A stretch of DNA of 64,000 nt from Cocleimonas flava (lineage in GTDB: Bacteria; Pseudomonadota; Gammaproteobacteria; Thiotrichales; Thiotrichaceae): the NCBI RefSeq assembly GCF_004339015.1, contig NZ_SMFQ01000003.1:372001-436000 (forward strand), given 5' to 3'. Positions 4,667-63,078 of this stretch are shown here, one piece after another (position 1 is the first letter of the stretch; each line of letters begins with the position of its first letter). The notes beneath the pieces are model-generated. The model was not told where the DNA came from, did no database searches, and was given only the letters and a program-made list of their open reading frames with translations. A program made the translations under genes and the position numbers.

Positions 4667-4697
4667 AAAAAAGTGCCCATAAGTAGGGGGGTGGCTA
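4667..4697 (-). repeat. CACCCCCC element copy 1
   Basis: Core at 4681-4693, read CACCCCCCTACTT on the minus strand, then ATGGGC and a T-run. It lies between two plus-strand genes, so the C-rich-to-T direction is antisense to both neighbours. This copy is not an obvious terminator for the hydroxylase gene. Confidence 0.85.
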
Positions 4698-4748
4698 AAG
4701 ATTAAAATCAATACCATTACTACCATTGAAAACTGCTAATATTTTGTC

Positions 4749-5378
4749 ATGAAAAAAATAGACTGGTATTTCGACTTTATTTCACCCTTCGCGTATTTGG
4801 CATTAAAGCGTTTCAATACGTTACCTAAAGATATTGAAATCAATCCCATCCCAATTTTATTTGCGGGATTACTCAATCACTACGACACTAAAGGACCTGC
4901 TGAAATTGAACGCATGCGCCAATATACCTTTCGGCATATTGTTTGGCTAGCTGAGCAATTTCAGATCCCTCTCACACTTCCGCCTGCACATCCTTTCAAT
5001 CCATTAAAGTATCTGCGGTTAAGTTTATTATTGGAAAACGATTTGAAATCGATTGAGACAATCTTTGATTTCATCTGGAAGGATGGACAATCTGCCGAGG
5101 ATGCCAGTAACTGGGAGAAACTAGCGATTGATTTTAGCATCAGTGATATAGATTCAAAAATCTCACAACAACACATCAAAGATCAGTTAATGAGCAATAC
5201 ACAACAAGCCGTTGATTTAGGTATTTTTGGTGTCCCTACTTTTGTTGTTGATGAAGAAATGTTTTTTGGTCAAGACTCAATGGAATTTCTAACATCTTAT
5301 CTACAAAACCCTGAAATTCTTAAATCACAAGCAATGCGCTCAGCGGATATTCTGCCCGAGGGAATTACCCGAAAATAA
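4749..5378 (+). CDS. 2-hydroxychromene-2-carboxylate isomerase family (DsbA-fold) protein
   Basis: 209 residues with a thioredoxin-like fold containing an all-helical insertion, as in HCCA isomerase / kappa-class GST proteins. The N-terminus WYFDFISPFAYLAL has the family SPFAY active-site region (no CxxC), and the C-terminal GIFGVPTFVVDEEMFFGQD is the cis-Pro loop and last strand. HCCA isomerases act in naphthalene catabolism with glutathione, but no aromatic-degradation genes are nearby, so a general glutathione-dependent isomerase or transferase is as likely. No strong ribosome binding site is seen before the ATG. Confidence 0.82.
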   Translation: MKKIDWYFDFISPFAYLALKRFNTLPKDIEINPIPILFAGLLNHYDTKGPAEIERMRQYTFRHIVWLAEQFQIPLTLPPAHPFNPLKYLRLSLLLENDLKSIETIFDFIWKDGQSAEDASNWEKLAIDFSISDIDSKISQQHIKDQLMSNTQQAVDLGIFGVPTFVVDEEMFFGQDSMEFLTSYLQNPEILKSQAMRSADILPEGITRK

Positions 5379-5384
5379 TAATCT

Positions 5385-5420
5385 AAAAAAACTGGCTATA
5401 AGTACGGGGGTGTCTTTTTT
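5385..5420 (-). repeat. CACCCCCC element copy 2
   Basis: Core 5400-5412, read CACCCCCGTACTT on the minus strand (one C to G change), flanked by A/T runs on both sides, so a terminator-like T-run exists in each direction. It begins seven bases after the isomerase stop and is also downstream of ilvC on the other strand. Confidence 0.85.
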
Positions 5421-5436
5421 CTGATCCACAAACGAA

Positions 5437-5465
5437 AAAAAAGCCCAGCAATTGCCAGGCTTTTA
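5437..5465. terminator. hairpin terminator between isomerase gene and ilvC
   Basis: AAAAGCC and GGCTTTT arms enclose the self-complementary GCAATTGC. T-runs occur on both strands (seven or more on the minus strand), giving a bidirectional intrinsic terminator that most likely serves ilvC. Confidence 0.75.
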
Positions 5466-5499
5466 ATAATCTTATGAAAGAATATTTAGTGCGTTTAGA

Positions 5500-5596: not shown

Positions 5597-5610
5597 GATG
5601 AATGCTCTAA

Positions 5611-6639
<1,029 letters not shown>

Positions 6640-6735
6640 TTAAAGTATATTACTTTGATAATTAAATAACGCTAATTAGTTCTTTCTAATTAATCAGTTA
6701 TGTTCTTTATTAAATGCAGTTTATAGATACAAAAA

Positions 6736-7230: not shown

Positions 7231-7247
7231 AAATTTAACTCTCCGGG

Positions 7248-8996
7248 TTACTTCTTGGAATTCGCATCATCAATGGCATCTTGCTTATTAAGATACATTT
7301 CATTGTGACCATAACCCGCTGGAATCATTGGATATACATTACCTTGTTCTTCAACAACAAAATCAAGGAAGTGTAAGTTCTTCTTATCTTCAACGGCTTC
7401 GCGAAGCGCATCTTCAACCTCAGAAGGTTTCGTTATGCGTTTACCAATGTGCCCATAAGCTTCAGCTAATTTAACAAAATCAGGTAAAGATTGGTTATAC
7501 GTCATTGCATAACGTTCTTCGTAGAAGAACTCCTGCCACTGACGAACCATACCTAAGTAACCGTTGTTTAGGTTGATGATATTAAGCGGTAAACCGTACT
7601 GCTTACAACATCCCAACTCTTGAATACACATCTGAATACTGCCATCACCCGTAATGCAGGCAACCGTTTCATCGTGATTTGCAAATTGAACACCCATTGC
7701 TGCAGGTAGTCCGAAACCCATCGTGCCTAAGCCACCTGAATTAACCCAACGTTTAGGTTTATTGAAACGGTAGTACTGTGCTGCAAACATCTGATGCTGA
7801 CCAACGTCAGAAGCAACAAAAGCATCGCCGTTAGTTACTTTACATAGCATATCAACGACATACTGAGCTTTGATGATTTCATCACCCTGCTCGTAACTAA
7901 GACAATCAAGCGCTTGCCAGGCTTTAATCTCTTTCCACCATTCATCGTATGCAGATTTATCAGGAACAATATTTTGCTCCTTAATTTCAGCTAGCATCGA
8001 CTGCAAGACTTCTTTAACGTCACCTACGATAGGATTATGCGCGTGTCTATTTTTAGAGATAGATGCAGGATCTATATCGATATGGATTACTTTTGCGTCA
8101 GGTGAAAACTTTTTCAAATCTCCGGTTACACGGTCATCGAAACGTGCACCAACACAAATAATCAGGTCTGTATGATACATCGCACGATTCGCTTCAACCG
8201 TACCATGCATACCTAACATGCCGATAAACTGAGGATCATTCGACGGATAACAACCTAAGCCCATTAGAGTATTAGTCACTGGGAAATTGTATAAACGACC
8301 AAGTTCGGTAAGTTCATCTGCTGCTTTCGATGTAATTACACCACCACCCGCATAAAGCACTGGCTTTTTAGCTTGCCCGATCATTTTGATCGCAGACTTA
8401 ATTTGCTTCTTGTTACCTTTGATCGTTGGCTGATAAGAACGCATCACCAAATCTTTAGGGTATTTAAATTCTATTTTCTTTACAGCAGGATTTGTTAGGT
8501 CCTTAGGGATATCGACAAGTACTGGACCTGGACGACCTGTAGAAGCAATATGAAATGCTTTTTTCATCACAGGTGCTATGTCTTCTATACACGTCACTAA
8601 GAAATTGTGTTTCACACAAGGACGAGTAATACCAACAATATCAATTTCTTGAAAAGAGTCTTTACCAATCAAATCTTTAGGAACATTACCCGAGATTACG
8701 ACTAAAGGAACCGAATCCATATACGCATCGGCAATACCTGTGACGGCATTGGTAGCGCCAGGGCCAGAAGTTACAATACAGACACCAGGCTTATCGCTAG
8801 TCTTTGCATAACCTTCTGCAGCATGGACAGCACCCTGCTCATGACGAGCCAGTATGTGTCTTATCTCACCACGATTTTCTGCTTTATACAGTTCATCATA
8901 GAGAAAAAGAACTGCCCCTCCGGGATAACCAAATATGGTATCAACGTTTTCCGCTTTTAGACATTCTATAAATATCTCAGCGCCTGATAATTTCAC
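7248..8996 (-). CDS. ilvI: acetolactate synthase large (catalytic) subunit, biosynthetic
   Basis: 582 residues. This ThDP- and FAD-dependent enzyme condenses pyruvate with pyruvate or 2-ketobutyrate. Visible landmarks are the catalytic Glu in RHEQGAVHAAEGYA (E53) and the ThDP/Mg motif from GDG at residue 450 to NN near 478. The start is GTG (8994-8996) with GAGGAG about 6 bases upstream; no ATG is placed as well. It is the first gene of ilvIHC. The long leader (8997-9244) shows no branched-chain-rich leader peptide, so classical attenuation is not evident. Confidence 0.96.
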   Translation of the reverse strand: MKLSGAEIFIECLKAENVDTIFGYPGGAVLFLYDELYKAENRGEIRHILARHEQGAVHAAEGYAKTSDKPGVCIVTSGPGATNAVTGIADAYMDSVPLVVISGNVPKDLIGKDSFQEIDIVGITRPCVKHNFLVTCIEDIAPVMKKAFHIASTGRPGPVLVDIPKDLTNPAVKKIEFKYPKDLVMRSYQPTIKGNKKQIKSAIKMIGQAKKPVLYAGGGVITSKAADELTELGRLYNFPVTNTLMGLGCYPSNDPQFIGMLGMHGTVEANRAMYHTDLIICVGARFDDRVTGDLKKFSPDAKVIHIDIDPASISKNRHAHNPIVGDVKEVLQSMLAEIKEQNIVPDKSAYDEWWKEIKAWQALDCLSYEQGDEIIKAQYVVDMLCKVTNGDAFVASDVGQHQMFAAQYYRFNKPKRWVNSGGLGTMGFGLPAAMGVQFANHDETVACITGDGSIQMCIQELGCCKQYGLPLNIINLNNGYLGMVRQWQEFFYEERYAMTYNQSLPDFVKLAEAYGHIGKRITKPSEVEDALREAVEDKKNLHFLDFVVEEQGNVYPMIPAGYGHNEMYLNKQDAIDDANSKK

Positions 8997-9244
8997 GTAT
9001 TTCTCCTCACGTAATATCTACCTTTTCACAACGAACTAAAGTTCGACATAGTAATATGAAAACAACACTCTATCCAGTCCAATATAGCGTGTTTTGCGAT
9101 ATTCTAACCCCTTTTAGAAGAGTGTGTTTATGAGTATATTAATCCTATGTATTAGCTCGTAGTAATATACTTAAACCTTAAACGGCATTAATTGTTCAAT
9201 CTAGCGTAACAAATCAAAGTAATAATAAGGTGCTAATAATGATT
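8997..9244 (-). promoter_or_regulatory. ilvIHC leader / promoter region
   Basis: This is the gene-free stretch upstream of ilvI. It holds a 14-bp palindrome (CGAACT-AA-AGTTCG, 9032-9045) close to the start codon and an 8-bp inverted repeat (GTATATTA at 9134-9141, TAATATAC at 9163-9170). These could be leader stems or operator half-sites, for example for an Lrp-type regulator, but neither matches a site I can name. I found no T-box, no riboswitch and no attenuator peptide. Confidence 0.4.
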
Positions 9245-9277
9245 AAAGTCACCCCCCTACTTCAGGGCAGTTTTTTT
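9245..9277 (+). repeat. CACCCCCC element copy 3
   Basis: Core CACCCCCCTACTT at 9250-9262, then CAGGGC and a run of seven T. It lies between ilvI and tRNA-Met, both on the minus strand, so the C-rich-to-T direction is antisense to both. The tRNA has its own classical terminator 20 bases away, so this element is not needed for tRNA termination. Confidence 0.85.
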
Positions 9278-9292
9278 AAGTAGTTTAAATAC

Positions 9293-9321
9293 AAAAAAGG
9301 CCACACAGTTGTGTGGCCTTT
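9293..9321 (-). terminator. intrinsic terminator of tRNA-Met
   Basis: Perfect 11-bp stem (AAAGGCCACAC, loop of four bases, GTGTGGCCTTT) followed on the minus strand by a T-run. It lies 41 bases downstream of the tRNA 3' end. Confidence 0.88.
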
Positions 9322-9361
9322 CGAAGAAATTAAAGCTTAAATAACTTTAATGCCTTATATA

Positions 9362-9438
9362 TGGTGGCTATACCGAGATTCGAACTTGGGACCCCATCAT
9401 TATGAGTGATGTGCTCTAACCAGCTGAGCTATATAGCC
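9362..9438 (-). tRNA. tRNA-Met (elongator, anticodon CAT)
   Basis: 77 nt including an encoded 3' CCA. The acceptor arms GGCTATA/TATAGCC are perfect, the anticodon stem CATCA/TGATG is perfect around CTCATAA, and the T-loop is TTCGAAT. The A-C mismatch in the T-stem also occurs in the E. coli elongator tRNA-Met, whose body it closely follows (TAGCTCAG, GGTTAGAGCACATCA). The first acceptor pair is normal, unlike initiator tRNA, and the body differs from the lysidine-modified tRNA-Ile(CAT). Confidence 0.95.
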
Positions 9439-9632
9439 AAAACCGTTTTGCCAATCAGCAAAAACAAGGAGCGCTAATATAGTGATTGTAATACCTTGTG
9501 TCAACCATTCAAACACGAAAAATCATCACTTTATTAAAGATAAATATTCAGACAAGAGCAGACGTAAGAGGTAAAACATTTTATAATTGTTCGGTTCACT
9601 TCCACCATTAAATAAAAATAGAAATTATAATT

Positions 9633-14152: not shown

Positions 14153-14932
14153 ATGAGTATTGATGATAAAACTACTTTCATTAGAAATGATTGTTTCATT
14201 CAACAGTTATACGACAACGATTCACCTTCAGGTAAATTCTCATTACTAGAAAAAGAAGTACGTAAAGCTGGCTTTAATGCAGCGCTGTATACCTTCATAC
14301 CCAAGCTATCTCAACTTTCAAACTCGTTAGAACCCGTATTTCAATACTCGAATATCTATCAACAAAGAATGCGCGACTATAAAAATAACCAAACGCATAG
14401 AGACGACTTTGTAATCAGACTATTTAAATCAGGCAACACACAGTGCATTGATTGGTGGGAGATATCAAAACAGATAGAGCTCACAAAAAAAGAAAAACAC
14501 GCAAACCATAAAACGAAAGAACACTTCGGGGTCAGTAGAGGAATCTCGTTTCCTACGCTAAACAATGATATGGGCATCGCCTATGTGAGTGTTATCAAGT
14601 TTAAAGATAACCCTTCTAACAACAACGTAAGTTCCGAAATGTTAGCGTATTTGAATCAGTGTTCTCAGGTCTACCACGATCATGCCATGACTCATCAAGA
14701 CCTTCGTTATCATTTTATTTTACCCATATTAAGAACACTCACCCCGAAAAAAGTAACACTCATTGAATACCTTATCTCAGGCAAGCCCATTAACTGTATT
14801 TCGAAACATGAGAACATCAGCACTCGTTATGCCGAGAAACTATTAATAGAGACACGCAAACAATTTGGGAATATTTCCACTAACGAATTGATCTATTTAA
14901 TGGGTTGCCTAAACATAGCAGACTATATCTAA
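14153..14932 (+). CDS. LuxR-like transcriptional regulator (divergent)
   Basis: 259 residues. The C-terminal ~60 residues fit a LuxR-type helix-turn-helix: LTPKKVTLIEYLISGKPINCISK, then ISTRYAEKLLIETRKQFG and STNELIYLMGCL. The N-terminal ~170 residues resemble an autoinducer-binding domain in layout (AALYTFIP, a DWWEI aromatic cluster, FGVSRGISFPTLNNDMGIAYVSV), but the conserved Trp/Tyr/Asp pocket is only partly visible. No luxI-type synthase is nearby, so it would be a solo regulator. The assignment rests mainly on the HTH pattern and is moderately confident. Confidence 0.65.
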   Translation: MSIDDKTTFIRNDCFIQQLYDNDSPSGKFSLLEKEVRKAGFNAALYTFIPKLSQLSNSLEPVFQYSNIYQQRMRDYKNNQTHRDDFVIRLFKSGNTQCIDWWEISKQIELTKKEKHANHKTKEHFGVSRGISFPTLNNDMGIAYVSVIKFKDNPSNNNVSSEMLAYLNQCSQVYHDHAMTHQDLRYHFILPILRTLTPKKVTLIEYLISGKPINCISKHENISTRYAEKLLIETRKQFGNISTNELIYLMGCLNIADYI

Positions 14933-14934: not shown

Positions 14935-14965
14935 AAAAAAAGTGCCCCAAAGTGGGGAGGTGCCT
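14935..14965 (-). repeat. CACCCCCC element copy 4
   Basis: Core 14950-14962, read CACCTCCCCACTT on the minus strand, then TGGGGC and seven T. It begins two bases after the LuxR-like stop but points against that gene. It is in terminator orientation for the convergent START-domain gene and forms an inverted pair with copy 5. Confidence 0.85.
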
Positions 14966-15010
14966 ACGATATAACACTGTTAAAAGACGATTAGAAAAAC
15001 GACAATAAAG

Positions 15011-15042
15011 AAAAGGTCACCCCCCTACTTTGAGGCCTTTTT
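15011..15042 (+). repeat. CACCCCCC element copy 5 (contains a stop codon)
   Basis: Core CACCCCCCTACTT at 15018-15030, then TGAGGCC and a T-run. Here the flanks do pair (AAAAGGTC with GGCCTTTT, one G-U). The TAG stop of the START-domain gene (15025-15027, minus strand) lies inside the core, so the element encodes the last residues of that protein. It is in terminator orientation for the LuxR-like gene. Confidence 0.88.
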
Positions 15043-15669
15043 ATATTTATCTTCCTTCGCAATACGACGTAAATTGTTTAACGTATGATAAGGAATATCC
15101 ACAGCCAGCGAGTTAACCAGCCACTTGGGAATATTACCCCCGGGATCAACACTCATCTGATACAGTATTTTTAATTTGCCATTCTGCAATGGCGTTAATT
15201 CCCAAAGACCTTGCATCTTGGAAATTCTCACAGTCTTTGGCAGTTTCTCGATCAATGCTGGTTTTGAGACAAAAGTAATAGTGATCTGATTACTTGTCTT
15301 ATTTTGTGTTTTTACAGATTGTACAACACTGTCGCGATCAATAACTGGCCATGGCATATCAGTGACTATATGATTATAAATCTCTGTCTCACTAACGCGT
15401 TTTATGGTTTTAGCGCTTTTGCAATTATGCACCCATCGAGGATACGAGCTAGTGTCCGCAATTACTGACAACACCGAATTAAGTGGATTATCAACAGTTA
15501 CCACGCCACGGAAGGACTTTAACGGTGAACCCTTGGTTTTTGACACAAACACCTGAATATTATCTTCTTCTTTTTCTAGGTACCAATTATCCTGCGTAGC
15601 AAATATTGGAACTGAAAAAATCAGCAGCATTGAAAATAGAAAACCGAGTTTAGTATAATTTTTAATCAT
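15025..15669 (-). CDS. secreted START-domain protein, paralogue A
   Basis: 214 residues with an N-terminal signal peptide (hydrophobic 8-24, ending IFAT) and a START / SRPBCC lipid-binding domain: EEDNIQVFVSKTKGSPLKSFRGVVTVD, then DTSSYPRWVHNCKSAK, then DMPWPVIDRDSV and YQMSVDPGGNIPKWLVNSLAVDIPYHTLNNLRRI. Bacterial START proteins bind hydrophobic ligands in a deep cavity; the ligand here is unknown. It is a tandem paralogue of the next gene, with long identical blocks. Its last codons and stop come from a CACCCCCC element. Confidence 0.82.
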   Translation of the reverse strand: MIKNYTKLGFLFSMLLIFSVPIFATQDNWYLEKEEDNIQVFVSKTKGSPLKSFRGVVTVDNPLNSVLSVIADTSSYPRWVHNCKSAKTIKRVSETEIYNHIVTDMPWPVIDRDSVVQSVKTQNKTSNQITITFVSKPALIEKLPKTVRISKMQGLWELTPLQNGKLKILYQMSVDPGGNIPKWLVNSLAVDIPYHTLNNLRRIAKEDKYKKASK

Positions 15670-21028: not shown

Positions 21029-21044
21029 GAATATTAAATAAGGT

Positions 21045-21079
21045 AAGCCACCTCCCTACTTTGGAGGCTTTTTTTATTT
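21045..21079 (+). repeat. CACCCCCC element copy 6
   Basis: Core CACCTCCCTACTT at 21049-21061. The flanks AAGCC and GGCTT pair, with an inner TCC/GGA match, and a run of seven T follows. It makes a plausible intrinsic terminator for the lipoprotein gene, 17 bases after its stop, between convergent genes. Confidence 0.88.
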
Positions 21080-27122: not shown

Positions 27123-28055
27123 CTATCTTATAGGCAATATCACCTCGGTCAATAGGTCTGCTTGATCTGTGTTGGCCGGATCATTTAAATAAAACTCATA
27201 TCCTAAAGGATTTCGGCGTGTTTTGATTCTATGATTGCCACTATATGCCATAGCAGTAGACCAGGCATTGCCTAAGTGCTCGTAAAAACCGGTATGCGTA
27301 ATTTTTAAACCATTCTGCTCTTTTAAAAAACCGGCTATAAGTGGGGGGGTGACTTCCATTTCTTTATTAACCGGAACAGCACAGACAAAACTCGTCATTT
27401 TAGATAAGGGATCAACACTCTTCACTATTTTAAGCGGTGAAGAGGTTAGTGATATATCTTGCTCTTTCATATAATTAAACAAATAACTGAAATCATCCCT
27501 CATTACTTGTGACAAATCCGTAATCGCACAGGTTCTTTCTAGACCAATAAAGTGCTGCTCTTGAATTTTTGTCTTACCCTCTATCTCAACCTTTGAAGAA
27601 ACAGTGCCTGTCTCTAAGTAATCCTTCAGCATTTTCAAACCACGCTCATAATCCATGCCTATATGGGCTTTGATTTTCTTCGCTACAAAGAATAACAAGA
27701 AAGGAAAATGACTGTTCATTGTCCAGGTAACGCGTGTTGTCGATTGATCCTGCTTCTCTAGATCAAAGAATACTTTTGCAGTAGAGGTAAAGGGGCGTTT
27801 AAATTGTAAATCCATCGCTAATTGTTGATCTGTGATTTCTTCCAACACCATCTCACCGGCACCCACAAGCGTGCCATCCCAGTTATAACTCGCACCCACT
27901 TGAGATTGTGTATCACTATAATTTAGTTGGCTATCAGGCTCCATTATCAACCAGGGAGACCAGATCGGCCATTGACGAAAATCTATTAATGACGCCTTCA
28001 CATCGGCGATGGGTTTATTAATAACGGTTGAACGTTTCACTTGATACGCAGGCAT
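27123..28055 (-). CDS. SRPBCC domain fused to GyrI-like effector-binding domain
   Basis: 310 residues. Residues 1-150 are a polyketide-cyclase/SRPBCC hydrophobic-ligand fold (WPIWSPWLIMEP, VGASYNWDGTLVGAGEM). Residues 160-310 are a GyrI-like/AraC effector-binding domain that ends in FYLNDPANTDQADLLTEVILPI. No HTH is present, so it is a ligand-binding protein and not a regulator by itself. Odd point: a full CACCCCCC element lies inside the gene on the sense strand and encodes V235-L244 (VTPPLIAGFL) within the GyrI domain. A second copy sits 34 bases upstream of the start codon. The start has AAGGAAAG just upstream. Confidence 0.82.
   Translation of the reverse strand: MPAYQVKRSTVINKPIADVKASLIDFRQWPIWSPWLIMEPDSQLNYSDTQSQVGASYNWDGTLVGAGEMVLEEITDQQLAMDLQFKRPFTSTAKVFFDLEKQDQSTTRVTWTMNSHFPFLLFFVAKKIKAHIGMDYERGLKMLKDYLETGTVSSKVEIEGKTKIQEQHFIGLERTCAITDLSQVMRDDFSYLFNYMKEQDISLTSSPLKIVKSVDPLSKMTSFVCAVPVNKEMEVTPPLIAGFLKEQNGLKITHTGFYEHLGNAWSTAMAYSGNHRIKTRRNPLGYEFYLNDPANTDQADLLTEVILPIR
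27325..27355 (-). repeat. CACCCCCC element copy 7 (inside a coding sequence)
   Basis: Core 27339-27351, read CACCCCCCCACTT on the coding strand, then ATAGCC and a six-T run. The frame is kept through the element. Its flanks do not form an obvious stem. In the sense orientation it could act as an intragenic pause or terminator. Confidence 0.85.
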
Positions 28056-28088: not shown

Positions 28089-28120
28089 AAAAAAAACGCC
28101 TATAAGTGGGGAGGTGCCTT
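28089..28120 (-). repeat. CACCCCCC element copy 8 (5' leader)
   Basis: Core 28104-28116, read CACCTCCCCACTT on the minus strand, then ATAGGC and eight T. It lies in the divergent spacer, in the leader of the SRPBCC-GyrI gene and in sense orientation. No minus-strand gene precedes it whose transcript it could end. Confidence 0.85.
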
Positions 28121-28195
28121 TAAATATTTGTCTTAATGTAAAGTATCTGAGCATAGATTTTATTTAATGTTACAGAGTTATGATACAGTTTAAAA

Positions 28196-33691: not shown

Positions 33692-35032
33692 TTAACTCTG
33701 ATTAGAGCTCGATGTGTTTCCGCTACTTTTCTTTTTGGCTTGTGCGTTTTGACCACCACGTCTACTCGAATTCTTATTACCGCTTTTATTCGCGTTATTA
33801 CGATTTCTGTAATTGGTTTTCTTATTTGGGCGACCACTACCACCCCCCGGCTTACGGGCAGGTTTTTGCTGGTCGTTCAGTGATGTTACAGGAACATCGT
33901 GATCAGGCTCAAAACCATCGATTAACTTACGCTCTAATAAGCGTCCAATTAATTTTTCAATATCTCTAAGTTGTTTGATCTCATCAGCGCTGACTAATGA
34001 AACCGCCTGACCTACTTCTCCAGCGCGTCCTGTACGACCAATTCTATGTACATAATCCTCAGGAACATTTGGTAGATCGAAGTTAACAACCTGAGGTAAC
34101 TGGTTGATATCTATACCTCTGGCAGCGATATCGGTTGCTACCAACACTCGCACATTATTCTTTTTAAATGCGGCTAATGCTTTTGTTCTCGCACCCTGGC
34201 TTTTATTACCGTGAATGGCTACTGCAGTAATCTGGTTCTTTTCTAATTGACGAGTAAGTCGATCAGCACCGTGTTTGGTACGTGAAAAAACTAATACCTG
34301 TTCCCAATTATTGTCATGTATCAGGTGAGCCAGCAATTCTGACTTCTGCTTTTTATCGACAGGACAAATCCACTGCTTAACCGTATCTGCCGTTGTATTT
34401 CTTGGTGTTACTGAAATCTCAACCGGATCATTCACCAATGTCTTTGCCAGTTTGCGAATTTCATTCGAGAACGTGGCTGAAAATAACAAGTTCTGTCTTT
34501 GACTAGGCAGATGGTAAATGATTTTACGGATATCGTGGATGAATCCCATATCCAACATGCGGTCGGCTTCATCCAGTACCAAAATTTCTAAATCATCAAA
34601 CTTCACTGCTTTTTGATGATGTAAATCCAGCAATCTTCCCGGTGTAGCGACCAGAATATCTGTACCGCGTTGAAGACGTTTAATCTGCGGGTTAATTTTC
34701 ACCCCGCCAAAAACAACCGTAGAGGTCAATTTTAAGTGTTTGCCATAGGCTTCAACACTTTCCTGAATCTGTGCTGCTAACTCACGGGTTGGTGTGATAA
34801 TTAAGGTTCTAACCTGTTTAGCTTTGGGTGGCTGACCTTTTCTGAGTAATTCTAGTATCGGTAAGGTAAAACCTGCTGTTTTACCAGTACCTGTCTGTGC
34901 TGCAGCCATTAGATCTCTGCCTTTTAATACGGCAGGAATTGCTTGTGCTTGAATGGGTGAAGGTTCGGTATAACCTTTTCGTGATAGTGCTTTTAGGATG
35001 TCTTCTGACAATCCTAGGTCTTCAAATTTCAT
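33692..35032 (-). CDS. rhlE: DEAD-box RNA helicase, RhlE-like
   Basis: 446 residues. The Q motif (SPIQAQAIP), Walker A AQTGTGKT (45-52), DEAD near 155, SAT (SATFSNE) and [10 protein letters not shown] are all present. The ordering and the [28 protein letters not shown] start are RhlE-like. The C-terminal ~60 residues are basic, Asn/Gly/Ser rich ([21 protein letters not shown]), a usual RNA-binding tail. The start has AGAGA seven bases upstream. The symbol is by similarity; RhlE paralogues are common. Confidence 0.9.
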
Positions 35033-36576: not shown

Positions 36577-36661
36577 ACTGATTTCACAGGGGCATAGGGA
36601 TTTTGAATATTAGCACAGTGGTTTATCTGATTTCAATCACCCATTTGGGTAATTAATAACC

Positions 36662-36693
36662 AAGCCACCCCCCTACTTATGAGGACTTTTTTG
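36662..36693 (+). repeat. CACCCCCC element copy 9
   Basis: Core CACCCCCCTACTT at 36666-36678, then ATGAGGA and a six-T run. It lies between two minus-strand genes (TauE-like, then M23), so the C-rich-to-T direction is antisense to both. Confidence 0.85.
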
Positions 36694-39019: not shown

Positions 39020-39052
39020 AAAACACACCCCCCCACTTACAGGCGATTTTTG
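39020..39052 (+). repeat. CACCCCCC element copy 10 (5' leader)
   Basis: Core CACCCCCCCACTT at 39026-39038, then ACAGGCG and a five-T run. It lies in the divergent spacer between the SDR and the hydrolase genes, about 50 bases upstream of the hydrolase start and in sense for it. Confidence 0.85.
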
Positions 39053-39720: not shown

Positions 39721-39753
39721 TAAGTCACCCCCCTACTTTGGAGCACTTTTTTA
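39721..39753 (+). repeat. CACCCCCC element copy 11
   Basis: Core CACCCCCCTACTT at 39726-39738, then TGGAGC, ACTT and a T-run; AAGT before the core can pair with ACTT after it. It is in terminator orientation downstream of the hydrolase gene, between convergent genes. Confidence 0.88.
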
Positions 39754-47975: not shown

Positions 47976-48016
47976 GTCTAAAAATAAAAGAGTAGATACC
48001 AAAGTGATTTAACTAA

Positions 48017-48049
48017 TAGTCACCCCCCTACTTATAGGCCGTTTTTTTT
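48017..48049 (+). repeat. CACCCCCC element copy 12
   Basis: Core CACCCCCCTACTT at 48021-48033, then ATAGGCC and eight T. It is in terminator orientation 45 bases after the DUF4124 gene; a separate strong terminator follows at 48071-48106. Confidence 0.88.
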
Positions 48050-48126: not shown

Positions 48127-50811
48127 TTAATTGCCGTTACCAGTACCTGTTCCCATCCAGATTATTTCATCTTTGCTATAACCTAAGACTTGGTAATTAG
48201 GCACAGCTTTGGTTATGGGTTCAAGAACAGGCATCCATGAACCGCCATTCTTGGTCAGATCTTCAGGTTTCATTTCCAAACCTTCCAGAACAGTTTCAGC
48301 AGCTTGATATCCACCAGGAGATTGAGGTGCAAACCAGTTCAAGGTCATACTGGTATCGCTCACCTTCATATAATTTGCATTATTTTCAATATCAACACTG
48401 GCGAGACCAGCGACGATATCATCATCCTCCACTGTTAAACCTAACTTCGCAAGCCCATGGATATTGTAAAAGTGCCATCTATACTTAGGGAATTCAAGCA
48501 AACCCATTAGCCCCATATCTACCGCCACTTTTTCCGTAACGGGAACAGGATTATTTAGCATGCCATCAGCTGCATGACAGGATTGACAGCCATCACTGCC
48601 AAAACCAATTGCTTGCTCTTTAGGTCTTACGCCATGACCCCCCAGAGTTACACCATTTGAAAAGGCAGGATAGTTTTCAACAACAGCAAGGAACGCTGGT
48701 ACTTGCTCTTCAGGCAAACTTGACGCCTGCATCTGCAAGAACATCTTCATCAAACTGCCGTCTGGTAATTTCATCGTAACCAGATCATCCGCTGATGCAA
48801 ATGGCGGATACCAATCATAATCAGCTGGCATTCCCATTGCGGCATTCATCCGCTTGAAGCTATTTAAGCCAGCATTGGATGCATCAAATCGACTGAAATT
48901 GAAGGGAACATCACTATCAAGTATGCCATCATTATTTTGATCCCACGCAGCAAACTTAGGGTCTGAACTGATCATGTAGTGTTCATAGCCGTAAGTCGCT
49001 TTATCGAAGTGAACCATATTCGGGAAGATTTGCATCATCGCCATGGCTTGTCTATTTGGATCTGTGGAGAAGAAGTCGTTAAGCGTTACCTGTCGAACTT
49101 CTGTAGGGGTTAAATCCAGCATATCCATTGCGGCAAATGCTTCTGCATTTCCTGGTCCTGTATCGGGCTTATTAGCGTAAAAGCGATACATTGAATATGC
49201 ATTGTAGTCCGCATCAGCTTCATTTTTTATCATTTCACCTTTGAAGAAACGTGCATCAAACACCATGCCGTTCGCCATCGGTTTAAATGGCGTAATCTTG
49301 GCATTCTGGGACCCACGAACCGCTAACGTTTGGGCTAAAAACGAGGTGCCTCCATTGAACCAAACTAACACTGGGGGCGCTTGATAAGCACTAAAATCAC
49401 CCGCAATATCGTCATGATCACCCGCATTCATGTGGTCTGCTGATATCAATAAAGAATCTTTACCTGCTGGATTACGACCAAATGATAAATGTGAACCCTC
49501 GCCATAAACAGAATAAGTAATCCCTCCACTTACCGGAATATGACAGGTTTCGCAGGCCATGGAATCAAGATGTTTGGAGCTATGGATTGATGCTTTCTTA
49601 CCATTCACAGGTTCTTCTGGTGTTGCTGAATCTACTAAAGACTCGATTCTATGACAGGTTGTACACATGATATTGCTTGGATCATCTGGGTCATTCTCTG
49701 TCCCGGGAGGTGGCGCAGGATAGTCTGCTGCAGCAAGGTCGCCCCCCACACTATGTCCGCGAACAAACTTATGTTTTGATACGGTATGGCACACGGTACA
49801 TTGGTTTTCTGCATCTTCGAAAGGACCGGTTTTAACGGTTGCGTGAACATCGTAACCTTCTTCAAATAAAGTCGCTCTTTTGTATCCAGTGCGCGCATGT
49901 TCGTGACAACGTAAACAGGTAGACTGCTTGGTAGCCCCTGCGGATTTTACCGCTGCAACACTTCTATCTTGAGCCACAGTTGGCCAAGGTGTATCGGGAT
50001 TACCATCGTTATCGGTATCCATCATCAAAGGCATATCGGGAATGGTGTCGCCATCTGTATCGATTTGTAAATCAGGAGAACCGTCCTGATCAAAATCACT
50101 ATTGTCGTGCGCGGCTTTGGCATAACCGAGTGGTGTCGGTGAAGCGCCATCAGCGGGAGCATGCACACTAACGACCATATTATCGCCTTCAGGAACTGAT
50201 TTATAAATATCGGCATGACATACCAGACAATCAATACCAGATTCCATAATATCACTAGCCTGCTTTTGCGGCTCGGGCAAACCCATCGCTGTTAACATGC
50301 CCTCGAACATACCTTCCATCACAGGTAGATATCGACCTGCATGACATTTGGCACATTCACCTAAATTTTCATTGCTAGTAAAGTTGACTAAACCCGAAGT
50401 TCCCGGAAGTCCGCAAGCTCTGTCTAACATGCCATGAGCACCACCACCAGGAAACATAACAGTATCACTGCGCGCGGCTAGTTTGTAATGAACGGTGTCC
50501 TTAAAATCTGCAATAGCCTCTGTGTGGCATTGCTGACAGAGTACCTGACTCACATTACGTTTAACCTCAGACTCTGGAATGACGGTGTCATTAACTATGT
50601 ATTGTTTAAGCTGTGCATCATAGACAAAATCGTGAGCATTTCTAGTAGCCTCGGCAGCATCTTCGTCTTTGCCGCTACTATTACAACCTGCCGTTATCAT
50701 TATCAGCAAAACCATCGCAATTAAACTGATTCTATTGAAAGGCTTACTAGCATGACTGCTGATCTGATAACTGCTTTTTCTGTTGATACTTCTTCCTAAT
50801 ATTTGCAACAT
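48127..50811 (-). CDS. octaheme cytochrome c lipoprotein with Ca-binding-type repeats
   Basis: About 894 residues from the ATG at 50809-50811, with GGGAG eight bases upstream; the upstream GTG has no spacing for one. The N-terminus is long and basic before a lipobox (MITAGC). Eight CxxCH sites are visible in order: CQQCH, CAKCH, CLVCH, CLRCH, CTVCH, CTTCH, CETCH and, far downstream, CQSCH. Between hemes 3 and 4 is an Asp-rich DxDxDGxxD tract (DFDQDGSPDLQIDTDGDTIPD) like thrombospondin type-3 calcium repeats. No octaheme nitrite/tetrathionate reductase catalytic motif (CxxCK) was found. It is a periplasmic or surface electron carrier of unknown role. Confidence 0.85.
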   Translation of the reverse strand: MLQILGRSINRKSSYQISSHASKPFNRISLIAMVLLIMITAGCNSSGKDEDAAEATRNAHDFVYDAQLKQYIVNDTVIPESEVKRNVSQVLCQQCHTEAIADFKDTVHYKLAARSDTVMFPGGGAHGMLDRACGLPGTSGLVNFTSNENLGECAKCHAGRYLPVMEGMFEGMLTAMGLPEPQKQASDIMESGIDCLVCHADIYKSVPEGDNMVVSVHAPADGASPTPLGYAKAAHDNSDFDQDGSPDLQIDTDGDTIPDMPLMMDTDNDGNPDTPWPTVAQDRSVAAVKSAGATKQSTCLRCHEHARTGYKRATLFEEGYDVHATVKTGPFEDAENQCTVCHTVSKHKFVRGHSVGGDLAAADYPAPPPGTENDPDDPSNIMCTTCHRIESLVDSATPEEPVNGKKASIHSSKHLDSMACETCHIPVSGGITYSVYGEGSHLSFGRNPAGKDSLLISADHMNAGDHDDIAGDFSAYQAPPVLVWFNGGTSFLAQTLAVRGSQNAKITPFKPMANGMVFDARFFKGEMIKNEADADYNAYSMYRFYANKPDTGPGNAEAFAAMDMLDLTPTEVRQVTLNDFFSTDPNRQAMAMMQIFPNMVHFDKATYGYEHYMISSDPKFAAWDQNNDGILDSDVPFNFSRFDASNAGLNSFKRMNAAMGMPADYDWYPPFASADDLVTMKLPDGSLMKMFLQMQASSLPEEQVPAFLAVVENYPAFSNGVTLGGHGVRPKEQAIGFGSDGCQSCHAADGMLNNPVPVTEKVAVDMGLMGLLEFPKYRWHFYNIHGLAKLGLTVEDDDIVAGLASVDIENNANYMKVSDTSMTLNWFAPQSPGGYQAAETVLEGLEMKPEDLTKNGGSWMPVLEPITKAVPNYQVLGYSKDEIIWMGTGTGNGN

Positions 50812-51256
50812 ATCTAACACTCCCTGAAAAACGACTAAGCACGTTTAGGCTGAAGATTTAAAACTCGTTTCGCCTTGTGAGTTGGTGATATTTCCTTATG
50901 CAAGCAGATTTCGTGTTTTTATTATTGATGCATTACACCACTCGATTAATCTCTAGTAGATAACGGAGTAAAATTATCAACAACGACAATTGTTAATTTT
51001 TATAAGAAGAATTGTTAATGAGTGATATTAAAATACACATATCGAACATAGATATTAAAAGAAAGAAAAGAGAGAAAAATATAAGAAACCAATAAATACA
51101 GATGAAAATCAGATAAAAAACAACTCAGAAATAAACAATTGTTAATTTCAACAGATAAGCATAAGCATATACTTATTTAATAATATTGGGGACTTTGCAG
51201 GCTGTTCTTTGTAAGAACGTAAAGTCAGTTTACATTTATTAAGAAGTATTTTTATC
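50812..51256. promoter_or_regulatory. divergent cytochrome control region
   Basis: 445 bases, very AT-rich. It contains three exact copies of AATTGTTAAT at 50988-50997, 51010-51019 and 51137-51146; copies 1 and 3 share a 13-base core CAATTGTTAATTT. Copies 1 and 2 start 22 bases apart, about two helical turns. The element may bind a regulator of both cytochrome genes. I cannot name the regulator. Confidence 0.55.
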
Positions 51257-53008
51257 ATGAGAACAATAATAATAAGATCACTTTCATTCTTTTATTTGAC
51301 TGTCTTTCTTTTCGCTTGTGGTGGCTCAAGTAGTTCCAGTGAATCAACTGTAACGACAAATGACAATCAAGATATCATTACTCCCGTTATACCAGCACCC
51401 CCCGAAGATACAGATAGCACAACGATTACATCCGTTGCGCAATCAGCACATGATTTTACCTCTGATCATTTCAGCGGTTCGGATAATTGTGCGCAATGCC
51501 ATGATGGCTTAAGTGATGATACGGGTGAAGATTTATCCATAGTCAATGCCTGGCAAACAACCATGATGGCTAATAGCGCTCGTGATCCGTTCTGGAAAGC
51601 AAAAGTTGCCAGCGAAGTGGTACGTAATCCGGAACACGGTAAAACAATCGAGGGTAAATGCGCCCGATGCCACATGCCAATGGCACATGTAGAATCAACT
51701 TTTAAAGATGAAACCGTAGACTTGTTTGATAATGGTTTTTTGTCTCCAGATAACCCTCATTTCAATCAAGCTGCTGAAGGCGTCAGTTGTACGGTTTGTC
51801 ACCAGATAGAAAATACCGCAGGATTTGGTACAGAAGCAGCAACATCAGGTAAGTTTGTGATTGCTGATAATACCGCCGACCCAAAGCTCTATGGACCATT
51901 CTCCAATCCAATTCAGGGACCTATGCTCAATAGCACAGGCTATACACCAGTTGAGAGCCAACATATTTCCGACTCTGCACTGTGTGGCAGTTGCCATGAT
52001 GTTAAAACCCCGATAATTGATACATCCGGAAACCTTACTGCTAATGAGTTTCCAGAACAGATGATTTACAGCGAATGGAAAAATAGCGATTTTGCAAAAC
52101 CAGGCAGCGAAGAAAGCTGCCAGAGTTGTCACATGCCATTAGCATCTGGCAAAGCAAAAATTGCGAGCAGACCCAGTTTTGTTGAAGCACGAGATCATTT
52201 TTCCAAGCATCAGTTTGTTGGTGCTAATACCGTCATGCTAGATATCTTACAGAACAATTCTACGACACTGGGTTTACCAGTGAATGACTTCAGTAATACG
52301 ATAAATTTAACAAAAGAAATGCTTAGAAGTTCAGCCGACATTGCGATTGAAAATCTACAACAGGAAAACCAGCAATTATCATTTAACGTTCATTTGAAGA
52401 ATAAAACCGGGCATAAATTCCCCAGTGGATTTCCCTCTCGAAGAGCATGGCTACATATTGAAGTGACTAATACAGACGGTGATCTGGTATTTGAATCTGG
52501 CGCAATCAATCACTTAGGACAAATATCTGGTGTAGATTCTGATAATGATAACGACACTACAAATAGCACTAATACAGAATATGAAAAACACCATGATCTG
52601 ATTACCTCAGCTGATCAAGTTCAAGTCTATGAAAGCATCATGGTTAATACGGACAATTCGGTTAATTACACCTTATTAAATAGCGCAGGCTATATCAAAG
52701 ATAATCGCTTATTAGCCAAAGGAATGGATAAGAGCCATATTCCGGTAAATATCGGCGCAAAGGGTAATGCAATTTCTGATGACAATTTTGATGCTGCAGA
52801 AGATGTCGTTACCTATCAACTGCAAAATATCCCTAATGGATCATACAGCGTGAAAGCCACATTGAATTATCAATCCATTTCCTACCGCTTCGCCACAGAC
52901 TTATTTAAGGATAAATATGCACATAGCTTAGTTAATGACTTCAAACTTATGTACGATAATGCACGTTTTCGTCATGAAGAAGTGATATCCGTAGAGGCTA
53001 ATTTATAA
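51257..53008 (+). CDS. pentaheme cytochrome c lipoprotein
   Basis: 583 residues. A signal peptide with lipobox LFAC is followed by a Ser-rich linker. Five CxxCH sites follow: CAQCH, CARCH, CTVCH, CGSCH and CQSCH, with intervening motifs DPFWKAKVASEVVRNPEHGKTIEGKC and CHMPMAHVE typical of cytochrome c552/c554-like multiheme proteins. After residue ~370 a beta-rich C-terminal domain begins (LSFNVHLKNKTGHKFPSGFPSRRAWLHIEV). It is divergent from the octaheme gene across a shared control region, so the two are likely partners in one electron chain (inference). Confidence 0.85.
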   Translation: MRTIIIRSLSFFYLTVFLFACGGSSSSSESTVTTNDNQDIITPVIPAPPEDTDSTTITSVAQSAHDFTSDHFSGSDNCAQCHDGLSDDTGEDLSIVNAWQTTMMANSARDPFWKAKVASEVVRNPEHGKTIEGKCARCHMPMAHVESTFKDETVDLFDNGFLSPDNPHFNQAAEGVSCTVCHQIENTAGFGTEAATSGKFVIADNTADPKLYGPFSNPIQGPMLNSTGYTPVESQHISDSALCGSCHDVKTPIIDTSGNLTANEFPEQMIYSEWKNSDFAKPGSEESCQSCHMPLASGKAKIASRPSFVEARDHFSKHQFVGANTVMLDILQNNSTTLGLPVNDFSNTINLTKEMLRSSADIAIENLQQENQQLSFNVHLKNKTGHKFPSGFPSRRAWLHIEVTNTDGDLVFESGAINHLGQISGVDSDNDNDTTNSTNTEYEKHHDLITSADQVQVYESIMVNTDNSVNYTLLNSAGYIKDNRLLAKGMDKSHIPVNIGAKGNAISDDNFDAAEDVVTYQLQNIPNGSYSVKATLNYQSISYRFATDLFKDKYAHSLVNDFKLMYDNARFRHEEVISVEANL

Positions 53009-53081: not shown

Positions 53082-53115
53082 AAAAGCCACCCCCCTACTT
53101 TGAGCCGTTTTTTTA
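53082..53115 (+). repeat. CACCCCCC element copy 13
   Basis: Core CACCCCCCTACTT at 53088-53100, then TGAGCCG and seven T. It is in terminator orientation 80 bases after the pentaheme gene and separates it from proS, which follows on the same strand. Confidence 0.88.
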
Positions 53116-55007: not shown

Positions 55008-55079
55008 TCCATCATAGATTTCGTAAGAAATTGTCGATGTACAATGCTAAATTTGGATGAGTGGCTTTTATAACCACTT

Positions 55080-55110
55080 AAGTCACCCCCCTACTTTTAG
55101 GCCTTTTTTA
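55080..55110 (+). repeat. CACCCCCC element copy 14
   Basis: Core CACCCCCCTACTT at 55084-55096, then TTAGGCC and a T-run. It is in terminator orientation downstream of proS and between convergent genes. Confidence 0.88.
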
Positions 55111-58014: not shown

Positions 58015-58048
58015 TAAAACACTGCTCATAAGTGGGGGGGTGTATTTA
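58014..58048 (-). repeat. CACCCCCC element copy 15
   Basis: Core 58030-58042, read CACCCCCCCACTT on the minus strand, then ATGAGC and a weak T-run. It abuts the purH stop but is oriented for minus-strand transcripts coming from the symporter gene. Confidence 0.85.
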
Positions 58049-60393: not shown

Positions 60394-60397
60394 ATGT

Positions 60398-60453: not shown

Positions 60454-60599
60454 GTGATAACTAATTGGAGGTAATTAATCAGTATCAAATAGGATAGAAA
60501 TAAAATCTAGCCAGTTTTAGAGGCTGGTTAAACCAATATAAAATTAGGTAGGTTGAAACCAAGTGTTTATGAAAATCTAAGACAAATACCGTAGGAGAG

Positions 60600-60632
60600 T
60601 ATTGCACCCCCCTACTTTGAGGCCTTTTTTTT
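60600..60632 (+). repeat. CACCCCCC element copy 16
   Basis: Core CACCCCCCTACTT at 60605-60617, then TGAGGCC and eight T. It is in terminator orientation for plus-strand transcripts but 263 bases beyond the CopD-like stop and after its own terminator. Confidence 0.88.
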
Positions 60633-60671
60633 AGTTAGCTTTAATTAGCTTTAGCTAACAATGTAAAGCAG

Positions 60672-62084
60672 TTAAGACGCTTTGGGCTTGTTATCTGATT
60701 TGTTAGCCGTTTTATTCGCTGATTGGTTGCCTGATTTATTACGAGGGTTTTTGCCCTTATAACCACCACCATTGCGAGGCTTTCCAGAGTGTTTCTGGCC
60801 AGGTTTGTTACCGTTGTTATTCGGTCGCTGTGGCACACGATCACGGGTAATACGCTTACGTGGTTTCAAATCGTCTGCGAGTAACTCTGCAGTTACACTC
60901 GCCATCTCTATCGACATACCGATGTATTCTTCAATTTCTGGCAAGTAGAAGGCAGTATCTTCACAAGCAAAACTATGAGCTTCACCCGATGCACCAGCAC
61001 GAGCGGTACGACCTATACGATGTACATAATCTTCCGCGATTTGAGGTAGATCATAATTGAACACATGCGACACATCATCAATGTGTAATCCACGCGCAGC
61101 TACATCCGTAGCTATCAATACCTGATGCTTACCCGCTGCAAATTCTTTTAACAGACTCTGGCGTTTGTTCTGGCGTACATCACCCGAAATAAGCACGGCT
61201 TGAATGTCATTGCCGCGCAAGTAGTCATCAATGGTTTCAGCATTACGTTTGGTATTTACAAAAACAATCGCACGCTCTGGTTTCAACTTTTGAATCAAAC
61301 CAATCAACAGTGGGATTTTTTCATCGTTAGATGGATAGTAAACATACTGCGCAATTTTCTTGGTATTAACTGCTTCGGCTTTGATTTCCAGTTTTTCAGG
61401 CTGGTTCATGTGCTCGTAGGACAATTCCATGACACGATGCGATAAGGTGGCAGAAAACATCATGCTGAGTCTTTTGCCTGGATCTGGTAAACGTCTTAAT
61501 AAAAAGCGAATATCCTGAATAAAACCAAGATCAAGCATGCGGTCGGCTTCATCAAGGACTAAGCCCTGACACTCGTGCAGGCTGAATACTTTTTTCTTCC
61601 AGTAATCAATAATTCGACCAGGTGTTCCAATCAGAACATCAACACCTGCTTCTATGGCTTTTTGTTGTTGATCGTAACCGGTTCCACCGTAGGCTAAGGC
61701 AATTTTTAATTCGGTATTTTTGCTCAGCTTTTCAGCATCTTTGGCAATCTGAATCGCGAGTTCGCGGGTTGGAGCGAGTATTACAAAGCGCACTTGAGAT
61801 TGGTTGCGCTTATTCTTATTCGGTTTTGGGTGTTTGATTAAATGTTGAAACGCAGCTAATAAAAACGCCGCTGTCTTGCCGGTTCCTGTTTGTGCCTGAC
61901 CGGCGATGTCTCTGCCTTCGAGACTGATTGGCAATGTTTTAGCCTGAATGGGTGTACAAAATTCAAAGCCCATTTCAGTGATTGCTGACTTTAACTCTGG
62001 CAGTAATGGCAAATCGGCAAATTTGACATCACTTAAATGTGTTTGGTGTAATTCTACTGTTTCTTCTTTTGTCGTATTATTCAT
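60672..62084 (-). CDS. rhlB: DEAD-box RNA helicase, RhlB-like
   Basis: 470 residues. The start THLSDVKFADLPLLPELKSAITEMGFEFCTPIQAKTLP and [15 protein letters not shown] match RhlB, the helicase of the RNA degradosome in enterics. [24 protein letters not shown] and HRIGRTARAG are intact. The C-terminal ~70 residues are a basic Asn/Lys/Gly-rich tail. Whether it binds RNase E cannot be told from the sequence. Confidence 0.9.
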   Translation of the reverse strand: MNNTTKEETVELHQTHLSDVKFADLPLLPELKSAITEMGFEFCTPIQAKTLPISLEGRDIAGQAQTGTGKTAAFLLAAFQHLIKHPKPNKNKRNQSQVRFVILAPTRELAIQIAKDAEKLSKNTELKIALAYGGTGYDQQQKAIEAGVDVLIGTPGRIIDYWKKKVFSLHECQGLVLDEADRMLDLGFIQDIRFLLRRLPDPGKRLSMMFSATLSHRVMELSYEHMNQPEKLEIKAEAVNTKKIAQYVYYPSNDEKIPLLIGLIQKLKPERAIVFVNTKRNAETIDDYLRGNDIQAVLISGDVRQNKRQSLLKEFAAGKHQVLIATDVAARGLHIDDVSHVFNYDLPQIAEDYVHRIGRTARAGASGEAHSFACEDTAFYLPEIEEYIGMSIEMASVTAELLADDLKPRKRITRDRVPQRPNNNGNKPGQKHSGKPRNGGGYKGKNPRNKSGNQSANKTANKSDNKPKAS

Positions 62085-62134
62085 TTATTATTTCTATGTT
62101 ATGAAAGCTCTAATCGACATGATCTGAACTTTCC

Positions 62135-62977
62135 TTATGCGAGCCATGATAATTGCATAGCTTCCAGCACGGGTTTAGTGTCCGGCATCTTTGTGCGCCA
62201 GATTGAAAATGACTCAGCGGCTTGCTCTACTAACATCCCCAGCCCGTTCATTACTTTAGTAGCACCTTGATCTTCGCACCAAAATTCAAATGCAGTTGGT
62301 CTACCTCCGTACATCATATCATAACAATGCACGCCTGACGCTAAACAGCTTTCAGGGATCGGTGGCATGATGCCTTGAAGGCTAGCCGCTGTGCCATTGA
62401 TGATTAAATCGTATTCGCCTTCGATGTCATTAAAGCCGCCACCCGCTAATTCACATACTGGAGAGTTCTGCTGTGCCAGTTCCTGCATATCAGCGACTAA
62501 TTCTGTGGCGCGTTCCGGGGTGCGATTAGCGATAAATATTTGACTCGGTAATTGCATTAATAACGGTTGCAGAATACCTCTGACTGCACCACCTGCCCCT
62601 AGAATTAAAATGCGTTTGCCCTGTATCTGGCTGTGATGATTTTCTACCAGATCACGAACCAAGCCGATTCCATCGGTATTAGTACCGTAAATGCTGCCAT
62701 CTTCTCTAAATACCAGGGTATTTACTGCTCCCGCTTTTTTGGCATAATCACTTAATTCATCTGCCAATTCCCACGCTTCCTGTTTGAAGGGTACGGTTAC
62801 ATTTAAACCCATACCTCCGCCTTTACGAAAAGCTTCAACCGTTTCTTTGAATTCATCTGTAGGAGATAACAGCGCTTCATACATGATATCTTCGTCCGCT
62901 TGTTGCGCGAACATCTGATGAATCTGCGGTGATTTACTGTGGGCGATAGGGTTACCGATAACGGCGTATTTATCCAT
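62135..62977 (-). CDS. aroE: shikimate dehydrogenase
   Basis: 280 residues, normal. It reduces 3-dehydroshikimate with NADPH in aromatic amino-acid synthesis. Motifs are NPIAHSKSP (substrate Ser), NVTVPFKQEA (catalytic Lys), NTDGIGLVRDL (Asp) and the nucleotide-binding GAGGAVRG. A CACCCCCC element lies upstream and separates it from hemB on the same strand. Confidence 0.96.
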   Translation of the reverse strand: MDKYAVIGNPIAHSKSPQIHQMFAQQADEDIMYEALLSPTDEFKETVEAFRKGGGMGLNVTVPFKQEAWELADELSDYAKKAGAVNTLVFREDGSIYGTNTDGIGLVRDLVENHHSQIQGKRILILGAGGAVRGILQPLLMQLPSQIFIANRTPERATELVADMQELAQQNSPVCELAGGGFNDIEGEYDLIINGTAASLQGIMPPIPESCLASGVHCYDMMYGGRPTAFEFWCEDQGATKVMNGLGMLVEQAAESFSIWRTKMPDTKPVLEAMQLSWLA

Positions 62978-63029
62978 TTGTGTGAATCCTGTGCGTTTAT
63001 CTCTTATCCATCAAACATTATTGAGATAA

Positions 63030-63078
63030 TACACCCCACCACTTTCTAAAATAATGCCTATAAGTGGGGGGGTGCCTT
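63030..63078 (-). repeat. CACCCCCC element copy 17, with a facing half-copy
   Basis: Full core 63062-63074, read CACCCCCCCACTT on the minus strand, then ATAGGC and an interrupted T-run. It is in terminator orientation downstream of hemB. A degenerate core in the other orientation (CACCCCACCACTT, 63032-63044) faces it, and the two match at 12 of 13 positions. Together they make a long inverted repeat with a 17-base loop. Confidence 0.88.

Follow-up and report, generated by a model that had tools for sequence, protein, structure and literature searches.

Recognition of DNA through dispersed uptake sequences is known only in the Pasteurellaceae and the Neisseriaceae, according to the available excerpts of PMC12616744. 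In the same excerpts the Pasteurellaceae uptake signal sequence (USS) consists of a core of 9 nt and a pair of AT-rich regions, spans up to 32 nt and occurs in dialects and often as inverted repeats; the Neisseriaceae DNA uptake sequence (DUS) is a continuous word of up to ~13 nt with a CTG core, T-tracts being no part of that description (PMC12616744). DUS come in eight dialects that track phylogeny, also form inverted pairs, and are not obvious in some relatives (PMC3630211, in excerpt); within genes, one orientation of uptake sequences predominates (PMC2346458, in excerpt). Here, we describe an element of about 32 bp, with a C-rich core and a T-run, that is dispersed over a stretch of 64,000 nucleotides of the Cocleimonas flava genome (the window, from here on), and we follow it through the whole genome from which the window comes (G000; 4.49 Mb, 10 contigs) and through its relatives. 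Because of its abundance, its 32-bp anatomy, its indifference to transcription, its dialects, the positions that it holds between species, its origin by substitution and its inverted pairs, we regard it as a likely candidate for a DNA uptake signal sequence, similar to USS and DUS in kind, unrelated to them in sequence and found outside both families.

The dispersed element is real and larger than first reported. The initial annotation had counted seventeen copies in the window, and every core matches CACCYCCSYACTT exactly where it had been placed; allowing one mismatch to the core, the window holds 19 matches vs 0.23 expected from 100 dinucleotide shuffles. A count of the 13-mer in the complete genome, proposed at that time as a check, gives 952 exact matches (651 + 301 on the two strands), and a control pattern read backwards gives 1; relatives were counted as well (below). 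A logo of 103 sites extends the unit to wAAGN-CACCCCCCYACTT-wNRGSCNY-TTTTTT. It starts with wAAG at -5 to -2 of the core start and one free position before the core CACCCCCCYACTT, after which come A or T, a loose position, R-G-S-C at +15 to +18, a pair of loose positions and the T-run of six (+21 to +26). The core, the RGGC-like block and the T-run of the earlier description are thus all borne out, RGSC and T-run lying at fixed distances, and what it had left unlisted is the upstream AAG at -4 to -2. Fixed and free positions are mixed within the logo, and the flanks are near-random with mild A/T richness only. The site lists and logos give a core with downstream AT-rich tracts over ~32 nt, which is the form of a USS.

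A 32-position matrix was built from these 103 sites, which come from 464 kb of G000, and those 464 kb were then searched with it. The scores were strongly bimodal, with 128 sites at 14 bits or more (one of them a one-base-offset duplicate), and a single first-order Markov randomisation of the 464 kb gave nothing higher than 8 bits. Over 835 kb of the genome the matrix finds 228 sites, including 3 one-base-offset duplicates, from which we extrapolate a total of ~1,200 elements per genome. A second form of the core, CACCCCCCACCTT, recurs in G000 (C1:196159), in the related genome G011 (L252) and, most notably, in G007. As with uptake sequences, one short motif is present in hundreds to thousands of copies, far above chance.

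How is the element distributed among relatives? Patterns were counted in whole genomes; the other comparisons within the genus come from drafts and from samples of 57-200 kb (G002-G007, G009, G011) or 30 kb (G001), or from the match loci alone (G008, G010). The exact core is frequent in G000 (952), G007 (242), G008 (628), G009 (662), G010 (316) and G011 (990) and scarce elsewhere: G001-G006 have 0-5 matches each, and 51 further genomes of the order have 0-4. Beneath this difference lies a common plan: CAYCCCCC, T at ~+11 to +16 and T again at ~+22 to +25, the two tracts being roughly one helical turn apart and the first being reduced to TT(W) in G000. For the corresponding pattern CAYCCCCCNNNTTN9TTT, nine of the 12 genomes of the genus have 128-892 matches (G000 892, G011 876, G006 665, G003 506, G007 435, G009 377, G002 291, G008 264, G010 128; it undercounts G008-G010, whose exact-core counts are higher) and the other three 0-9 (G004 9, G005 5, G001 0). 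The count is 0-4 in the 51 other genomes of the order and 0-2 for reversed controls, and in a sample of the class 49 of 369 genomes have any match, G000 alone exceeding 3.

The carriers of this plan differ in what surrounds the inner core. Unbiased word counting in G006, an apparent non-carrier, found the dialect ACC-CATCCCCCC-TGTTTTTT-ATATA-TTTTT (CATCCCCC is matched 28 times over 99 kb, one or more of these matches not being an element). The form is ACC-CATCCCCCCC-TTTTTT in G003, AC-CACCCCCCC-TSTTTTTCGATGATTTGTA in G002, where the post-core stretch TTTCGATGATTTGTA, freer in G000, is nearly constant, AAAGTA-CACCCCCC(C)-ACTTTTTTGCCCTTTT in G007 and AAAAGA-CACCCCCCTACTTTT in G009; the forms of G008 and G010 are represented by 2 copies and 1 copy. 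G004 and G005 have a few copies, and G001 has 0 matches to the general pattern in its whole genome and none in its 30-kb sample. Trees of MurE-type and ComEC proteins (11 taxa each, deep nodes weak) both place G000 with G011, G008 with G010 (and with G009 in the MurE tree) and G004 with G005; G003 joins G006 in the ComEC tree only, since the MurE tree does not contain G003 and pairs G006 with the motif-less G001. The dialects agree with the well-supported clades of these two single-gene trees, and dialects with a constant inner core that follow phylogeny are a further trait of uptake sequences. The initial annotation had proposed recognition of the sequence as such and not of a stem, a view supported by the fixed and free logo positions, the lack of a hairpin signal (below) and the dialects of sister species.

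Word counts in other genera of the order (G015, G028, G044, G050, G037 and G021; 21-80 kb each) gave top words that, where examined, were clustered or tandem, although a rarer motif could escape such counts. Among 2.9 million viral contigs, one holds the full pattern CACCCCCCYACTTNNRGSCNNTTTT, the other dialects not having been searched there, and on the strength of a single such contig we would not call the element phage-borne. On that contig (L172, IMGVR_UViG_3300036713_000359) the copy lies at 2418-2442, just ahead of an open reading frame of 914 amino acids. In G259, from another family of the class, contig L302 carries two element copies at 2839 and 4617, 1.8 kb apart, on a low-GC contig end (GC 0.32 vs 0.43 before) past an integrase-like reading frame that resembles an integron integrase by eye; this stretch is possibly imported DNA of the element's genus. 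Other repeats were encountered along the way: short CTGTCCT-type minisatellite repeats often directly upstream of elements in G006 (L164-L171), a CRISPR-like array in G003 (L224, ~8151-9555 onward; a word family counted 40 times, with ~61-base spacing where listed) and, in G015 of another genus (L174, 12905-18230), inverted repeats of the form CCACGGAA/ACACGGAA that lie in a cluster.

Positions of single copies can be compared between species. For 53 sites of G011, 8 counterparts were matched in the G000 sample, and 2 with a single flank were dropped; of the 6 sites with both flanks, 5 hold a copy in the same orientation (at one of them, L159:18361, the surrounding bases align poorly) and the sixth has a copy with a 1-bp deletion in G000. 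Within coding sequence, a Mur ligase (by Pfam), which we take to be MurE, carries an antisense copy in the loop between NLDDxFG and IGYG in G000, G011, G010, G007, G009 and G006. Here, G006 has ACCCATCCCCCC..TTTTTT (ACCCAT form), G007 has AAGTACACCCCCCC..CTTTTC (AAGTA form) and G009 has AAAAGACACCCCCC (AAAAGA form), in each case its own dialect; the G008 site looks degenerate, no copy is present in G001, G002, G004 and G005, and the G003 orthologue was not found. In a DinB-type polymerase (IMS family), G000 and G011 encode SRGV as AGT AGG GGG GTG, which creates the core; the codons at these positions differ in seven further species, and there is no indel (G001, G003 and G005 stand outside this comparison), so that this core arose by point substitution and is not a mobile insertion. 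Similarly, in a gene of the fatty-acid-oxidation alpha type a full element (45.6 bits) has come about through substitutions, KWGGD vs WxGD over 8 species, and the border of the element's A-tract bears an indel of one residue. Judged by these three of the 20 coding sites, among which the Mur-ligase loop varies in length, copies arise by point mutation and not by insertion, as uptake sequences do. So the copies keep their places from one species to the next, are renewed through point mutation and switch dialect together, a combination that points to a recogniser protein changing its taste and not to insertion of a repeat.

We then considered where the copies lie relative to genes. A hexamer model predicted 412 genes in the 464 kb, missing at least one (window 14153-14932), and against these genes the 128 sites comprise 34 in sense and 24 in antisense tandem, 31 between convergent and 16 between divergent genes, 20 within coding sequence and 3 at edges. 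The initial annotation had placed eleven window copies behind a gene whose transcript their T-run could end, which is about right for the window and equals what chance orientation gives: in the 464 kb, 65 of the 105 classified intergenic sites are placed like terminators vs ~60 expected under random orientation given the gene layout. The enrichment at 3' ends that it had asked to see tested does not extend to the T-run, whose orientation is near random. Its emphasis on 3' ends holds in so far as the copies do lie nearer gene 3' ends, but they do so regardless of orientation and some are intragenic or divergent; nearness in either orientation is what one would expect if an element acting as DNA keeps away from promoters. 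Within genes, 16 copies are antisense and 4 sense when read on the C strand. The element occurs, like uptake sequences, in both orientations, between and within genes, and independently of transcription.

Folding gives the same picture. Over the 183 of 228 sites that score at least 30 bits, the 35 bases before the T-run fold like their shuffles (mean z -0.14), and folds of -6 kcal/mol or lower occur in 27% of them; the initial annotation had found a stem convincing in a few copies only (5, 6 and partly 11), and single copies carry no stem signal. Because orientation is near random and single copies lack a stem signal, the element is not a transcript-end signal. Copies also come as inverted pairs: 19 within 120 bp (3 offset duplicates removed) vs 6.1 expected, 12 with the T-tracts facing, of which 7 abut at 40-42 bp, and 7 with the cores facing. 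The latter have a G/C stem followed by T and may therefore terminate transcription; inverted pairs, some of them terminator-like, are also a feature of uptake sequences. Inverted pairs of the element with the potential for long hairpins were also seen in G006 (L162, L163) and G002 (L205, L206, L210).

What could read such an element? G000 has a gene for the ComEC channel and one for a ComP/PilE-type minor pilin (C3:457830-458138) that scores above the cut-off of PF16732 (ComP, the DUS receptor) and bears an N-methylation motif. ComEC is found in 11 and the PF16732 pilin in 9 of the 12 genomes of the genus, motif-poor genomes included, and PF16732 has no match in any of 14 control genomes. Since it is also present in motif-poor genomes, the machinery seems not to track the motif, and it shows capacity, not specificity. 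In the mechanism that we propose, the element would be a double-stranded mark on free DNA, recognised by a surface DNA receptor that is probably a type IV minor pilin. Its C-run core (a G-run on the other strand) is followed by two T-tracts about one helical turn apart, which may make the DNA bendable. The cell would in this way preferentially import DNA of its own kind, and the uptake bias could both spread and keep the copies, marked alleles that are taken up replacing unmarked ones.

Several observations weigh against an uptake signal. In Haemophilus and Neisseria, uptake sequences are denser than the ~0.2-0.27 elements per kb found here. Among the site histories, the cross-species comparison covers 3 of the 20 coding sites, the Mur-ligase copy sits in a loop of variable length, and the DinB-type copy is weak (18.4 bits, an exact core with no T-tract). 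As for the machinery, ComEC and the ComP-type pilin are also present in the motif-poor G001, G004 and G005, whereas PF16732 was not found in the motif-rich G002, G009 and G010, nor ComEC in the motif-rich G009, all drafts of 80-92% completeness; in G000 the PF16732 pilin adjoins a reading frame that resembles PilY1 by eye, and may be an ordinary PilE. Finally, there is a mild strand bias, 134 forward vs 94 reverse in the sample, partly tracking GC skew, and 651 to 301 for the exact core genome-wide, which differs from published uptake sequences in that no general orientation bias was observed for these in the excerpts of PMC2346458.

The main surviving rival is a chromosome-organising or recombination signal, that is, a chromosomal DNA signal for a nucleoid, segregation or recombination protein, similar to Chi, KOPS or nucleoid-protein sites, whose dialects follow changes in the protein. 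The orientation-free placement at the level of DNA, the strand bias following GC skew and the positions held between species would all suit it. Chi and KOPS, however, are 8-bp signals, unlike a mostly intergenic element of ~32 bp with two T-tracts; the bias amounts to merely ~1.4-2.2 to 1, and a conserved housekeeping reader is not expected to lose its sites in 3 of 12 genomes of one genus. We thus consider this explanation unlikely. A small mobile repeat, REP/BIME-like or other, spread by a transposase such as RAYT, would account for hundreds of mostly intergenic copies, for inverted pairs (in G002 as well) and for clade-specific variants, and is already largely refuted. The 183 copies give no hairpin signal, positions are retained between species, and the Y1 transposase family PF01797 has no match in the motif-rich G000, G007, G008, G009 and G010 and is matched in the motif-poor G001, G004 and G005 (and also in the motif-rich G002, G003, G006 and G011). 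With no such match in G000, no hairpin signal and the DinB-type core derived by substitution with no indel, we rejected this reading, which is very improbable. Equally improbable, and rejected as the main function by the orientation and hairpin tests, is a transcription terminator or RNA 3'-end or processing signal, which the six-T run at a fixed place, the nearness to gene 3' ends and the 7 of 19 pairs with cores facing would favour, but which leaves unexplained the 40 of 105 classified intergenic sites that are wrong-way or divergent, the 20 coding copies and the lack of a hairpin signal. Of the four options offered by the initial annotation (a protein, an RNA partner, a processing site or a DNA uptake-type signal), it is the last that fits best, and the RNA partner and 3'-end readings are disfavoured by orientation.

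If the element is indeed an uptake signal, then it would probably represent a third, independently evolved family of such signals, comprising no fewer than five dialects, along with vestigial states, within one gammaproteobacterial genus that is itself probably free-living and marine. In the open-access literature we found no earlier report of such an element in this group. Self-marked DNA exchange would then have evolved convergently beyond the two families that define it, and a further lineage following the same logic in unrelated letters, with an invariant core, T-tracts in helical phase and dialects, would be an independent replicate. With such a replicate one could test whether uptake bias by itself generates genomes of this kind, and ask how dialects switch, as at the Mur-ligase position with its different dialects, why G001, G004 and G005 lack the element and which pilin reads it.

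The window copies are collected in Table 1, including a weak eighteenth. At gathering scores, Rfam yields nothing but a tRNA in the window. Two adjacent multihaem-cytochrome-like genes (48127-50820, minus strand; 51257-53008, plus strand) with weak MtrC/MtrF-like domains also lie in the window.

Table 1. Element copies in the 64-kb window, with matrix score and surroundings.
Feature	Position	Strand	Score (bits)	Context
32-bp element	4667..4698	-	48.2	tandem, T-run antisense to both neighbours
32-bp element, CACCCCCGTACTT core	5386..5417	-	41.6	
32-bp element	9245..9276	+	42.0	divergent by protein genes; tRNA-Met 9362-9438 (-) beyond
32-bp element	14936..14967	-	40.4	half of inverted pair with 15013-15044
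32-bp element	15013..15044	+	42.4	overlaps stop codon of START-domain gene 15025-15669 (-)
32-bp element	21044..21075	+	40.5	convergent region
32-bp element	27325..27356	-	43.8	within reading frame 27123-28055, sense strand, reads VTPPLIAGF
32-bp element	28090..28121	-	43.9	divergent region
weak 18th copy	33836..33867	+	16.7	antisense, within gene 33692-35032
32-bp element	36661..36692	+	40.9	T-run antisense to both neighbours
32-bp element	39021..39052	+	38.3	divergent region
32-bp element	39721..39752	+	45.9	convergent region
32-bp element	48016..48047	+	48.3	convergent region
32-bp element	53083..53114	+	47.3	flanked by two plus-strand genes
32-bp element	55079..55110	+	45.9	convergent region
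32-bp element	58016..58047	-	38.8	convergent region
32-bp element	60600..60631	+	44.6	convergent region
32-bp element	63048..63079	-	44.0	flanked by two minus-strand genes

How does the element compare with the systems described so far? The element does not show the build of an intrinsic terminator, in which a G+C stem immediately precedes the T-run and both lie in the sense of an upstream gene. REP/BIME sequences are likewise known for many intergenic copies, inverted pairs and clade-specific forms. The element shares these and differs in lacking a hairpin signal, in the lack of a Y1 transposase match in G000 and in coding copies that arose via substitution, so that neither the palindromic unit nor the transposase of a REP/RAYT system is in place. 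Neisseriaceae DUS, read by the ComP receptor, are comparable in several respects: as far as the excerpted accounts go, both have dialects that match phylogeny around a constant inner core, and in both there are inverted pairs, copies inside genes and some relatives with no obvious motif (PMC3630211). DUS, however, is in those excerpts a continuous word with a CTG core and no T-tracts, the consensus of the element shows neither that inner core nor a continuous word of up to ~13 nt, and the pilin of its genome may be of the ordinary PilE kind. From Pasteurellaceae USS (Hin-USS AAGTGCGGT, Apl-USS ACAAGCGGT) the element is set apart by its C-run core (CAYCCCCC) in place of the inner core GCGG and by a host outside the family, presumably in a different order of bacteria, and its role in uptake is a putative one. 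With USS, as the excerpts describe it, the element shares a short invariant core and two AT-rich tracts that together span up to 32 nt, a copy number in the hundreds to thousands, types that follow phylogeny (two in USS), inverted repeats and a bias towards one orientation in coding sequence.

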